DNA of 64,000 bases, from NCBI RefSeq assembly GCF_020150815.1, contig NZ_CP083723.1:1116001-1180000 (forward strand). The letters run 5' to 3'. The notes beneath the pieces were generated by a model, which saw only the letters and a list, made by a program, of their open reading frames with translations, made no database searches and had not been told where the DNA came from. Origin of the DNA: Haloprofundus salilacus (GTDB lineage: Archaea > Halobacteriota > Halobacteria > Halobacteriales > Haloferacaceae). The position numbers and the translations under genes were made by a program. Shown piece after piece: positions 45,308 through 48,596 of this stretch (its first letter is position 1; every line of letters starts with the position of its first letter).

Positions 45308-45616
45308 TCACCACGACGGCGGGCGGAATCCGGCGTCTTCCAGGATGTTCTTCCAGCGTTTCTGTATCGAGAGCCGAGTCACGTCCATTGCGTCGGCGAC
45401 GGCGGTCTGGGAGCGTTCCTCCCCTGCGATGAGTGCCCCGGCGTAGAGACTCGCGGCGGCCGTCGCGGGTTTCGAGCGGTCCTCGTCCGGGACGTGGGTG
45501 AGAAACAGGTCGGTCGCGTTCGACCGCGATTCCGAGCCGAGGTCGAGGCTGTCGGCGGCCCGTTCGAGGCGGGTCAGCCACTCCTCGTTGTCGACGCGGT
45601 CCCGTGCGCGGTACAT
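45308..45616 (-). CDS. TFB-like protein with a single cyclin repeat
   Basis: A 102-residue protein that matches only the last cyclin repeat of TFB: LERAADSLDLGSESRSNATD, PATAAASLYAGALIAGEERS, and the DNA-binding helices TAVADAMDVTRLSIQKRWKN. It lacks the zinc ribbon and B-finger, so it could bind DNA but not recruit polymerase in the usual way. A TTTATATC box (about 45639-45647, minus strand) lies 27 bp before the ATG, so it is probably expressed. It may compete with or modulate TFBs. Confidence 0.82.
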   Translation of the reverse strand: MYRARDRVDNEEWLTRLERAADSLDLGSESRSNATDLFLTHVPDEDRSKPATAAASLYAGALIAGEERSQTAVADAMDVTRLSIQKRWKNILEDAGFRPPSW

Positions 45617-45720: not shown

Positions 45721-45804
45721 GCGTGGGTAGCCAAGCCAGGAAACGGCGCAGCGCTTAGGACGCTGTCTCGTAGGAGTCCGCCGGTTCAAATCCGGTCCCA
45801 CGCA
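45721..45804 (+). tRNA. tRNA-Leu (TAG)
   Basis: Class II tRNA: acceptor GCGTGGG/CCCACGC, D-arm GCCAAGCCAGGAAACGGC, anticodon stem CAGCG/CGCTG around CTTAGGA (anticodon TAG, reads CUA), a long variable arm (TCTCGTAGGAGTCC) and T-arm GCCGGTTCAAATCCGGT. Discriminator A; CCA not encoded. Its 3' 44 bases form the left attachment repeat of an integrated element. Confidence 0.96.
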
Positions 45805-45805
45805 T
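45761..45805 (+). repeat. attL, 3' part of tRNA-Leu
   Basis: A 45-bp sequence from CGCTGTCTCGTAGGAG to CCCACGCAT, identical to 48115-48159. It restores the tRNA 3' end after integration. Confidence 0.92.
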
Positions 45806-45866
45806 ACGCCTTCGGCGTACCGTCGTACAATTCTCTTGGAGCGTCTATCGGAAGAAAACCCACAAA

Positions 45867-46964
45867 ATGTCGCTCGATAGACCAAATTCACTGCAACGCT
45901 GTCCCGTAATGGACGGAGACGAAACTGAACCCAATCGGAACATCATCATCGTCTCCGAACCCAACCGAGAACTGCTCACTGAGAAGGAGCACGTCGACTA
46001 CTACGAGTACCGTAAATCGCTCCTGACGTGGCTTTTGAAATTCGGCAAGAACCCCCAGCGGGCCAGTGGGTACTCACCGTACTCAGTCTACAGTACCGGG
46101 TATCGTACCGCCGCGTTCGACCGCTGGGTGTGGCAACAGGACGGCCACTACGTCGCTCCACCAACGCAAGAGCACGCGAGCGCCTTCATGGAAGAAACCG
46201 CCTACAGCGACGTCTCTGACTCCACAAAAGGCAAGCAGTTAGAAATGCTTCGGCGGTACTCCAAGTGGCTTCAGGAGCAACACGGGGCCGACAAATGGGA
46301 GTTCCCGTGGACATTCACGAGCGGGGGCGGCAACAACGCACCCAGAGACTTCCTGTCCCTCGATGAACGCCGGAAGATTCGCCAAGCCGCTCTCGCTATG
46401 GATGGTAACCCAGCTTACGGTGTGGAGGACACAGACGCACTCGCTGTCACGGACTGTAGCTGGAAATTCACCTCAATCGTATGGACGAGTCTTGACGCCG
46501 CGCTCCGTCCAGTTGAGGTTGGGCGGGCGAAAGTTGGATGGGTGGATACCGAAAACGGTGTGCTCCGTATCCCGCGTGAAGAGTCCAGCAAGAACGAAGG
46601 GAACTGGACGGTGAGCCTGACCGACCGAACCACCACAGCGTTGAGTCGCTGGCTTGAGGAGCGGGCCGAACACCCCCATTACGAGGATACGGACCAGTTG
46701 TGGCTCACCCGCCACCGGAACAAGTACGGTGCGAACGAACTCCGGAGACTCTTACACAAGCTCTGTGACGACGCCGAGATAGACCACACACACCGGCAAA
46801 TGTCGTGGTACACTATTCGCCACTCGGTCGGGACGTACATGACCAAGGAACGCGACCTTGCCGCGACGAAAGCACAGCTCCGTCACCGGAACGCGAAGAC
46901 GACGATGAAATACGACCAAGTGCCGGTTGAAGACCGCCGCGACGCACTCAACCGGATGGGATAA
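45867..46964 (+). CDS. Tyrosine recombinase / integrase
   Basis: A 365-residue integrase located 62 bp after the tRNA it presumably targets. An N-terminal SAM-like core-binding domain (KLEMLRRY-like GKQLEMLRRYSKWLQEQHGA) precedes the catalytic domain. Active residues visible are Arg in AALRPVEVGRAK, Lys in REESSKNEGNW, Arg of box II in SWYTIRHSVGTYM, His/Arg in LRHRNAKTTM and the nucleophile Tyr of TTMKYDQV. Box II begins WYTIR rather than HxLR. It looks functional. An ATG at 45909 is an alternative start. A broken relative is at 48441. Confidence 0.93.
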   Translation: MSLDRPNSLQRCPVMDGDETEPNRNIIIVSEPNRELLTEKEHVDYYEYRKSLLTWLLKFGKNPQRASGYSPYSVYSTGYRTAAFDRWVWQQDGHYVAPPTQEHASAFMEETAYSDVSDSTKGKQLEMLRRYSKWLQEQHGADKWEFPWTFTSGGGNNAPRDFLSLDERRKIRQAALAMDGNPAYGVEDTDALAVTDCSWKFTSIVWTSLDAALRPVEVGRAKVGWVDTENGVLRIPREESSKNEGNWTVSLTDRTTTALSRWLEERAEHPHYEDTDQLWLTRHRNKYGANELRRLLHKLCDDAEIDHTHRQMSWYTIRHSVGTYMTKERDLAATKAQLRHRNAKTTMKYDQVPVEDRRDALNRMG

Positions 46965-46966
46965 CC

Positions 46967-47230
46967 ATGCACGAAAACCAACCCTACTCGTTCAACCCGA
47001 ACCGAATTGAGGAACTGATTGGCGACTACCACCGGGCGACCTCGAACAGCGAGAAGCGCACCATCGAGAATGAAGTGCTCGGGGAAACGGTCTGGCGGGC
47101 CGAACGCGGAGACAACGGCGGCCAGTTCACGCTGTCAAGAGACGACTTGATGGCCCTCTACGAGCGGTTGGACGAAGACGATGAAGAAGGCAAGCATGTG
47201 ATTCAGAAGGCGCTGGTGGACCGCCTGTAG
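46967..47230 (+). CDS. Small element-borne protein with ETVWRAER motif
   Basis: An 87-residue acidic protein two bases after the integrase stop, so it is probably in the same operon. It is helical (FNPNRIEELIGDYHRATSNS; DDLMALYERLDEDDEEGKHV) with a central ETVWRAERGDNGGQFTLS. The same ETxWRAER peptide recurs in the 34-codon ORF at 47823. No family recognised; a helper of the integrase (excisionase-like) is one possibility. Confidence 0.7.
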   Translation: MHENQPYSFNPNRIEELIGDYHRATSNSEKRTIENEVLGETVWRAERGDNGGQFTLSRDDLMALYERLDEDDEEGKHVIQKALVDRL

Positions 47231-47407
47231 CTGTCGGTCAATTCTTGCCGGAAATTCATGGACAGCGAGAAGCCGTCGAGTAGGTTACTTTCGACGTATG
47301 AGACATAAAGGGGGTTAGTAAGAGTTGACTTTCCTGTCTGCTGGGAACCGGGAATTTAGTGTGACACCACTAACACTTATATTGAAAGTCGTTGACTTTA
47401 CTATAGA
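47231..47407 (+). other. Promoter-containing gap in the mini-element
   Basis: 177 bp of lower-G+C sequence between the integrase operon and the DUF7344 gene. ACACTTATATTG (about 47371-47382) includes a TATA-like CTTATAT about 30 bp before the ATG at 47408. Confidence 0.45.
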
Positions 47408-47818
47408 ATGTCTGACGATGTGTTCGAGTCAGATGGTGGAGAATATAATTGGGGAAGCGGGTACGCGACCCAGTTGCTACGCGATTCGAGGGTCACTGAG
47501 AACCTTGATACTATATTTGAACTCTTAAGTATCACACGGCTCCGATACGTCCTCTATTACCTCTATAGTATGGACGACGAGGTTGCCGAGCTTGAAGATG
47601 TAGTTCATGCAGTATGTGCGTACGAGGTTGCTGGCACAGAACCAGACGAACCCCCATCACGGGAGCAGGTCAAACTTGATGTACACCATTCGAAGCTACC
47701 CCGTCTTGACGAGGCCGGAATCATTGACTACGATTCCCGACAAAATGAACTCCGCTTTTACCACTCACCCTCTCTTGAAGAGTGGCTTGAACATGCTCGG
47801 CACATGGAAATAGACTGA
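47408..47818 (+). CDS. DUF7344 winged-helix protein
   Basis: A 136-residue protein of the haloarchaeal DUF7344 type: NLDTIFELLSITRLRYVLYY, LYSMDDEVAELEDVVHAV, and VKLDVHHSKLPRLDEAGIID with a wing YDSRQNELRFY. Such wHTH proteins are frequent in haloarchaeal viruses and integrated elements and probably regulate them. A CTTATAT TATA lies about 30 bp upstream. Confidence 0.85.
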   Translation: MSDDVFESDGGEYNWGSGYATQLLRDSRVTENLDTIFELLSITRLRYVLYYLYSMDDEVAELEDVVHAVCAYEVAGTEPDEPPSREQVKLDVHHSKLPRLDEAGIIDYDSRQNELRFYHSPSLEEWLEHARHMEID

Positions 47819-47822
47819 ACAA

Positions 47823-47927
47823 ATGACATCCTCCCCAGAAACCATCTGGCGGGCTGAACGCGAAGACGGCTCGCCGTGTAGCGTGGGAGAGTTGGGAATT
47901 TACGATTGTCGGCCCGCGCCAAGTTGA
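47823..47927 (+). CDS. Short element ORF (34 codons), ETIWRAER motif
   Basis: An ATG four bases after the DUF7344 stop opens MTSSPETIWRAEREDGSPCS and VGELGIYDCRPAPS. The peptide ETIWRAERED is close to ETVWRAERGD of the integrase-linked protein, so this is a paralogous fragment or a short functional motif. Reading on in another frame (VGPRQVEVTNASYGFLKDNQ) also looks protein-like, so a longer gene may have been frameshifted here. Confidence 0.5.
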   Translation: MTSSPETIWRAEREDGSPCSVGELGIYDCRPAPS

Positions 47928-48114
47928 GGTTACAAACGCCAGCTACGGCTTCCTGAAGGACAACCAACCGGTATGTGGTCAGTGTCGAGGAGCGAGATGG
48001 CCGGGCACTTCCTGCTGAGTGCGACTGCCCGGCAGACGTCCACCGTGAACAGACTGTGAGCACAAAGTCGCACTGGCGACCGTAGGCGGCCCAACTGTGT
48101 TGAGCGCGGCAGAC

Positions 48115-48159
48115 CGCTGTCTCGTAGGAGTCCGCCGGTTCAAATCCGGTCCCACGCAT
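48115..48159 (+). repeat. attR, copy of tRNA-Leu 3' end
   Basis: Perfect 45-bp copy of 45761-45805. It lacks the 5' part of the tRNA and so is not a gene. Confidence 0.92.
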
Positions 48160-48199
48160 TTTCTGTCCGAACGCAGTGAGGGCGAAAACCGTTCAGAGC

Positions 48200-48269
48200 G
48201 GATTCTGAACCCTGCAAGTCGCGCGCAGCGAGCCACGTGAGCGAGCACGTCTTGCTCCGGTTCAAATCC
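48200..48269. repeat. T-arm-ended hairpin, second copy
   Basis: Begins GGATTCTGAACC and ends GGTTCAAATCC, which are near reverse complements, with inner arms GCAAGTCG and CGTCTTGC. It continues into CAGTCCTACGCAT (to 48281), a decayed copy of the att core CCGGTCCCACGCAT. Confidence 0.55.
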
Positions 48270-48281
48270 AGTCCTACGCAT
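48257..48281 (+). repeat. Decayed attachment-site copy 1
   Basis: CCGGTTCAAATCC-AGTCCTACGCAT differs from the last 25 bp of the tRNA-Leu att core by two substitutions (A for G and T for C). It suggests an older integration at the same tRNA. Confidence 0.65.
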
Positions 48282-48324
48282 AAACCGGCGCGAGTGAACA
48301 CGAGCGCCGTGTTTTGTTGTCTGA

Positions 48325-48382
48325 GGATTTGAAGCAGGGAGTGAAGCGAACGTAGTGAGTGGAACGACCGAGGTTAAAATCC
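48325..48382. repeat. T-arm-ended hairpin, third copy
   Basis: Begins GGATTTGAAGCAGGGAG and ends CCGAGGTTAAAATCC; the outer arms GGATTTGAA and TTAAAATCC pair with one mismatch. The loop contains GAAGCGAACGTAGTGAG. Confidence 0.55.
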
Positions 48383-48394
48383 GGTTCCACGCAT
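48370..48394 (+). repeat. Decayed attachment-site copy 2
   Basis: GAGGTTAAAATCC-GGTTCCACGCAT aligns to the last 25 bp of the att core with about four to five mismatches. It directly precedes an integrase remnant. Confidence 0.6.
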
Positions 48395-48440: not shown

Positions 48441-48596
48441 ATGTCAGGGAATCCAACGAACCCCAGCGACAATAGAATAGACGCCGATTTAGACCCCGGT
48501 CGGCACATCGTCATTGTCCCATCTGGCGCCAAAGAGTGGCTGTCTGAAAAGCAGTATGTGGACTATCACGGCTACCGTGAACAGTTCCTCAGGTAG
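48441..48596 (+). pseudogene. Integrase N-terminal remnant
   Basis: A 51-codon fragment whose residues GRHIVIVPSGAKEWLSEKQY and VDYHGYREQFL match the N-terminus of the intact integrase (NRNIIIVSEPNRELLTEKEH, VDYYEYRKSLL). It ends in a TAG where the intact gene continues. It lies 46 bp after decayed att copy 2, so it marks an older element once integrated at this tRNA. Confidence 0.8.

Follow-up and report, generated by a model that had tools for sequence, protein, structure and literature searches.

We consider it reasonably probable that the 2354 bp (measured repeat to repeat) lying beyond a tRNA-Leu(TAG) gene of Haloprofundus salilacus, in the 64,000-nucleotide stretch of DNA analysed here (the window), are a cut-down integrative element or plasmid that derives from larger elements and can probably still be excised, without replication or transfer of its own. 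In the proposed mechanism, the element would have been inserted into the 3′ end of the tRNA gene by its own HSTV2-type tyrosine integrase, having arisen by reduction from larger elements with an integrase of this kind and the same tRNA target, and it would now spread only passively or with help provided in trans, as genes of its own for replication and transfer appear to be absent. Read in this way, the element shows how far reduction of an archaeal integrative element can go while the att sites, the integrase and one regulator stay intact, and it connects elements of plasmid type with tailed viruses through a single tRNA target.

The ends of the element are formed by attL (45761-45805, + strand) and attR (48115-48159, +), two identical copies of a 45-bp core, and the complete tRNA gene at 45721-45804 (+) is recognised both by ARAGORN and by the Rfam tRNA family (50.6 bits); the perfect direct repeats at tRNA-Leu(TAG) reported in an earlier note on this DNA are thus confirmed. 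The attL copy corresponds to the 3′ half of the tRNA gene plus one base and, because the core spans this half, the tRNA is restored on insertion. The G+C content of the element is 0.555, compared with 0.648 (sd 0.032) for segments of 2354 bp across the window. That the repeats are not a product of chance follows from the empty site observed in three congeners. Our genus sample consisted of five genomes, that of the window included (G000, G084, G092, G204 and G222), and in G084, G092 and G204 the tRNA-Leu gene is joined directly to sequence homologous to position 48160 onward, so that the empty site, whose presence in relatives the earlier note had proposed to check, is found in three of the four congeners. 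The joined flanks of the window match these sites at 85/85 bases over the tRNA and one further base, and at 68/80 (G204), 61/80 (G092) and 53/79 (G084) bases at the start of the right flank; agreement is highest within its first 50 bases because the right flank is itself built of exchanged modules.

Between the repeats, an integrase and three small open reading frames had been noted. The integrase (365 aa, 45867-46964, +; PF00589, E 2.8e-14) and the frames of 87 and 136 aa are borne out by our analysis, but the third frame is not a gene, and 47840-48114 (+) reads as a frameshifted SWIM zinc-finger pseudogene. The absence of replication and transfer genes agrees with our ORF and Pfam inspection; in particular, no replication protein, as an integrative plasmid would have, was matched by Pfam among the coding parts searched. 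Only integrase families were matched at low E when the element was searched against PHROGs. The integrase has the conserved R, K, (H/Y)xxR, H, Y pattern expected of an HSTV2-type tyrosine integrase: R214, K242, Y315xxR318, H340 and Y349, which we take to be the catalytic residues, are all present, in columns that are invariant in an alignment of eight sequences. Among solved structures, no match to it was obtained at E up to 0.001. HSTV2-type integrases are described as one of 17 archaeal tyrosine integrase families, delimited by an identity of 30% or more across 60% of the protein (PMC8371274, as far as its description of the families goes). The integrase of the element is 51.4% identical to gene 75 of HSTV-2 over 100% of its length and can, by identity, be classed with this family.

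The 87-aa protein (ORF2, 46967-47230, +) is likely to be a partner of the integrase, judging from the company its homologues keep. Among the 392 genomes searched, five homologues were found outside the genus: two are directly behind an integrase of the same type as that of the element, a third is joined to the N-terminus of an integrase (in genome G257) and two follow what read by eye as other integrases. The 136-aa protein (47408-47818, +; PF24035, E 1.8e-16) belongs to DUF7344, presumably a winged helix, and this regulator is the only clear cargo. A paralogue with 67% identity, at G000:C1:2227552-2227956 in the same genome, is a possible source of the cargo gene, and similar genes occur in the congeners; a viral HTH protein was also considered as the source and rejected, as the two show no similarity. 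The arrangement of the three genes resembles, by gene order and size alone, the SNJ2-type module, in which int, orf2 and orf3 form one operon with products of 111 aa (Orf2) and 140 aa (Orf3), according to the summary of Wang et al. 2018 given in PMC8371274: in both cases, an integrase is followed by a small ORF and then by a DNA-binding-type protein. In the element, however, the third gene codes for a DUF7344 protein and lies 177 bp further on, and homologues of ORF2 are also found behind other integrases.

That we regard the element as reduced, and not as small from the outset, is mainly a consequence of the pseudogene at its right end. These 0.3 kb contain no intact gene, but when they are read through their frameshifts they match an intact protein of genome G132 (63% identity over 52 aa, E 8.7e-17) and, more weakly, proteins of other genomes, and the Pfam SWIM family is matched at E 8e-4, just below the cutoff. 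A first test with a SWIM profile made from three relatives was not significant (E 0.06); the SWIM match of the right end belongs to a different subfamily from that of this profile. Intact genes of SWIM type are found near the right att site in three larger elements (L075, L078 and L080). As the gene is intact at the right end of these elements and broken here, the replication and other genes have probably been lost by internal deletion. In two further relatives, L076 and L083, the right end yielded no SWIM gene of this type, and the larger relatives are therefore not all of one plan.

The integrase has matches at E up to 1e-30 in 168 of the 392 genomes of the order. The closest full-length relatives (58-68% identity) are found immediately 3′ of a tRNA-Leu gene at all 14 of 14 loci (13 TAG, 1 GAG), a count in which repeated fetches of the same place are included once and from which a split integrase (L086) and the fragment in G222 (L085), both also at tRNA-Leu(TAG), are left out. 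At 20 further loci, mostly of 44-53% identity, ARAGORN predicted a tRNA at the integrase end in 16, namely Leu(TAG) in six, Glu in seven, Gly in two and Leu(TAA) in one, and none in the remaining four. These other tRNAs indicate that the wider family has changed its choice of target, and that tRNA-Leu is retained in the nearest branch. Distances between att copies could be measured in 13 of the 14 genomes, under the assumption that neighbouring copies bracket one element and with three right copies that have 3 mismatches in 29. They come to 2354 (the element of the window), 3422, 5783, 6389, 6588, 7043, 8625, 13715, 14025, 17426, 20264, 29177 and 49434 bp, and the description of the element as very small is fitting, as it is the smallest of the 13. 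In the 6.4-kb relative L078, an integrated plasmid-type element, a DUF1424 Rep and the SWIM gene were confirmed by Pfam. L078 shares with our element the integrase (65%), the tRNA and a SWIM gene near the right end, but the element of the window has no Rep, and its SWIM gene is broken and of another subfamily. Other relatives carry large ORFs of other kinds; the closest integrases sit with plasmid-type or other cargo. Outside the genomes, relatives of the integrase were found in five records of the plasmids collection, all below 60%, and once in viral_contigs.

The alternative that the element is a virus satellite, which would be packaged or mobilised by Mincapvirus tailed viruses after infection, starts from its att site and integrase type, both of which it shares with these viruses. 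The integrase has matches in 49 phage records, and the best eight, all HSTV-2-like and with 51% identity over the full length, are entries of HSTV-2, HRTV-11, HCTV-6, HCTV-15, HRTV-2 and HRTV-7. In the five of these viruses that were examined (HSTV-2, HCTV-6, HRTV-7, HRTV-11 and HRTV-2; L105-L109), all classed as Mincapvirus, the attP consists of the 45-base 3′ end of a tRNA-Leu, is identical to the att core at 41/45 positions in every case and lies about 46 bases upstream of the integrase, so that the order of att site and integrase is also shared; one metagenomic viral contig has a 42/45 match to the core. It follows that viruses and element very probably have one common chromosomal target. 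In addition, Hafunaviridae, the parent family, are reported to be temperate, and most haloarchaeal tailed proviruses are reported to lie in tRNA genes (both from what PMC8651126 states on these points). By contrast, the element measures 2.35 kb and has no virion genes, compared with virus genomes of about 69-72 kb, and it carries no gene for packaging, capsid remodelling or replication. Beyond att and integrase, it shares no DNA with the stretches of the five virus genomes or with the viral contig to which it was compared. A capsid gene of HSTV-2 type is absent from the genome of the window and from its four congeners (it is present in 7 of 352 genomes), and the closer integrases are in elements that do not look viral. 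The suggestion of the earlier note that the element might be a satellite mobilised by a helper is thus circumstantially supported by the common att site and integrase type, but not by further shared DNA in the virus stretches compared or by a capsid gene in the five genus genomes, and we regard such a satellite as decidedly unlikely.

The element might instead be a dead remnant, whose ends and integrase survive but which no longer moves. The SWIM pseudogene is in line with this explanation, as is the fate of the copy in the congener G222, where tRNA-Leu is followed by a 124-bp cassette and then by the element. This copy retains 90% identity at its left end and 88% DNA identity in ORF2 and the DUF7344 gene, but a deletion joins residue 37 of the integrase to ORF2, and no right att site was found within 15 kb. 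Moreover, 282 bp beyond attR, the window contains the truncated N-terminus of a second integrase, of another subtype (48441-48596, +; 35 aa at 54% identity to the integrase of L083, E 6e-10), just past the cassettes described below, which was apparently left behind when an earlier element entered this tRNA gene. However, the integrase of the window is full length and has its invariant residues, ORF2 is open and the att repeats are perfect; with these parts intact, excision and reintegration within the cell should probably still be possible, and we hold a dead remnant to be rather unlikely. Against an element that still moves, the exact attP junction of an excised circle was found 0 times in viral_contigs. 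Another proposal is that the DUF7344 regulator benefits the host, so that selection keeps the element as a carrier of cargo and mobility is secondary. Compared with the G222 copy, the gene has a dN/dS of 0.20, it looks to be under purifying selection by this measure, and in G222 it is still open although the integrase is gone. Nevertheless, this ratio comes from one pairwise comparison only and the genome has the 67% paralogue as well, which makes us consider a cargo carrier very unlikely.

If the preferred reading of a reduced but excisable element is kept, the comparison with G222 also bears on its age. The dS of the DUF7344 gene between the window and G222 is 0.27, near the values of five neighbouring genes (0.29-0.43), and the element family has therefore been in the genus since about the time of the species split or circulates between the species. 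Had attR been unconstrained since the split from G222, about 6 changes per 45 bp would be expected, and 0 are seen (P about 0.003); the perfect attR, together with the different position in G222, suggests a recent move to the present site. Alternatively, the identity of attR may be due to gene conversion from the tRNA gene, and the divergence of the element from the G222 copy, close to that of the neighbouring genes, also fits a long residence. As a separate observation, an integrase N-terminus fused in frame to ORF2 is found both in G222 (L085:4197-4511) and in G257 (L149:5166-5615), and from their sequences these fusions look like the outcome of separate deletions.

The region beyond attR holds a lead that is more novel than the element itself. 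Imperfect copies of the tRNA-Leu 3′ end, absent from the earlier note, are found at 48237-48281 and 48350-48394, spaced by 122 and 113 bp and each identical at 20/22 positions over the last 22 nt. Partial tRNA copies are mentioned as a known footprint of integration in the relevant part of PMC9897764. In the window there is more than such a footprint, as each copy ends a hairpin cassette: cassette 1 (48160-48281, +) adjoins the element without being part of it, and cassette 2 (48282-48394, +) is decayed and folds poorly. The hairpin is made up of an antisense T-arm, a loop module and a sense T-arm with the tRNA end. Such cassettes, of about 100-165 bp, follow tRNA genes in tandem and terminate in a copy of the 3′ end of the tRNA concerned, and they are widespread in haloarchaea (L143, L144-L146, L154-L183, L184-L213 and L214-L243, besides 48160-48394). 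A pattern search for the 3′ 22-mer of tRNA-Leu followed by another T-arm start 80-110 bases on gave matches in 179 of 392 genomes, and the reversed-pattern control gave 0 among the matches listed. Neither the cassettes nor the element of the window was found described in a limited literature search. Like the MITEs, PATEs and SMRs of Haloquadratum, the cassettes are short, transposase-free haloarchaeal repeats, but unlike these, as they are described in the portion of PMC3119063 that concerns them, the cassettes are located at the 3′ ends of tRNA genes and include the end of the respective host tRNA.

Several results concern the structure of the cassettes. Fifty distinct hairpins have a mean z of −2.6 against shuffled sequences, with 72% below −2, and the antisense base pairs with the variable base of the T-loop in 35 of 46 scorable units, while in 11 it does not. 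RNAalifold, applied to 25 of the 50 hairpins (alignment A1), returned 12 pairs, 5 of them changed on both sides, although this covariation leans towards structure because the units were picked by eye for clear form. A second alignment (A2) comprised 20 hairpins, seven of which were taken from the five genus genomes that were subsequently searched with it, and these seven match by construction. The model R1, which matches cassette 1 with 87.1 bits at G000:C1:1164199-1164280, found 98 places in 11 of 12 genomes; as it includes the tRNA 3′ bases it favours tRNA ends, and hence a loop-only model without them (R2) was also used, with 33 places in 5/5 genus genomes. Thirty of the R2 loci were examined: in 19, the 3′ end of a tRNA gene is no more than 300 bp upstream, and in five more it is 390-1164 bp upstream; another is the window's own unit, separated from its tRNA by the element, and the last five have no tRNA. 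At 14 of the 19 near loci, the last 20 bases of the tRNA itself recur nearby at 19 or 20/20. The tRNAs concerned include Phe, Pro, Gly, Lys, Glu, Ser, His and Leu.

At tRNA-Pro(TGG), for instance, a cassette whose tRNA end matches at 20/20 is present in G084, and G000 contains one that has decayed (16/20); the tRNA of G204 and G092 is joined straight to the sequence that trails the cassette in the others, and G222 has a different insert (L252, L254, L258, L259 and L260). This pattern would fit an insertion with duplication of the tRNA end, but a loss by recombination between repeats would look alike. In the stretch of the window and in 11 further loci, Rfam matched only tRNA and none of the cassettes. 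Cassette 1 was found in 0 of 50,697 phage records and in 2 of 72,556 plasmid records, in both cases next to or inside tRNA genes, while the loop pattern of the cassettes gave three matches in viral_contigs, which neither lie near a tRNA nor have cassette form and were set aside as chance.

It could be proposed, tentatively and with considerable doubt, that the cassettes are undescribed, haloarchaea-wide and coding-free mini-elements that integrate at the 3′ ends of tRNA genes with duplication of the last ~20 bases and pile up in tandem, that they are moved in trans by tRNA-targeting tyrosine integrases, with the 2.35-kb element as a minimal autonomous partner, and that they supply spare att sites, one of which is occupied by the element of G222. 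Simple mobilisation in trans does not explain why the antisense arm matches each host tRNA; the match could arise on the hairpin by repair or by template switching. Alternatively, the cassettes may act as RNA. If they are mobile, they would represent a new class of small archaeal repeat with a mechanism that can be tested in laboratory haloarchaea; should they function as RNA, they would add a new structured feature to tRNA transcripts.

Two further observations concern tRNA genes and their neighbours. In a plasmid of Haloarcula halophila, a cassette (L275:1448-1590) interrupts what reads by eye as a tRNA-Cys, within an array of 17 predicted tRNA genes that precedes a TROVE-domain gene. In the window, the tRNA-Leu gene is adjoined, at 45308-45616 (−), by a gene for a short TFB-like protein of 102 aa that contains only a TFIIB repeat (PF00382).
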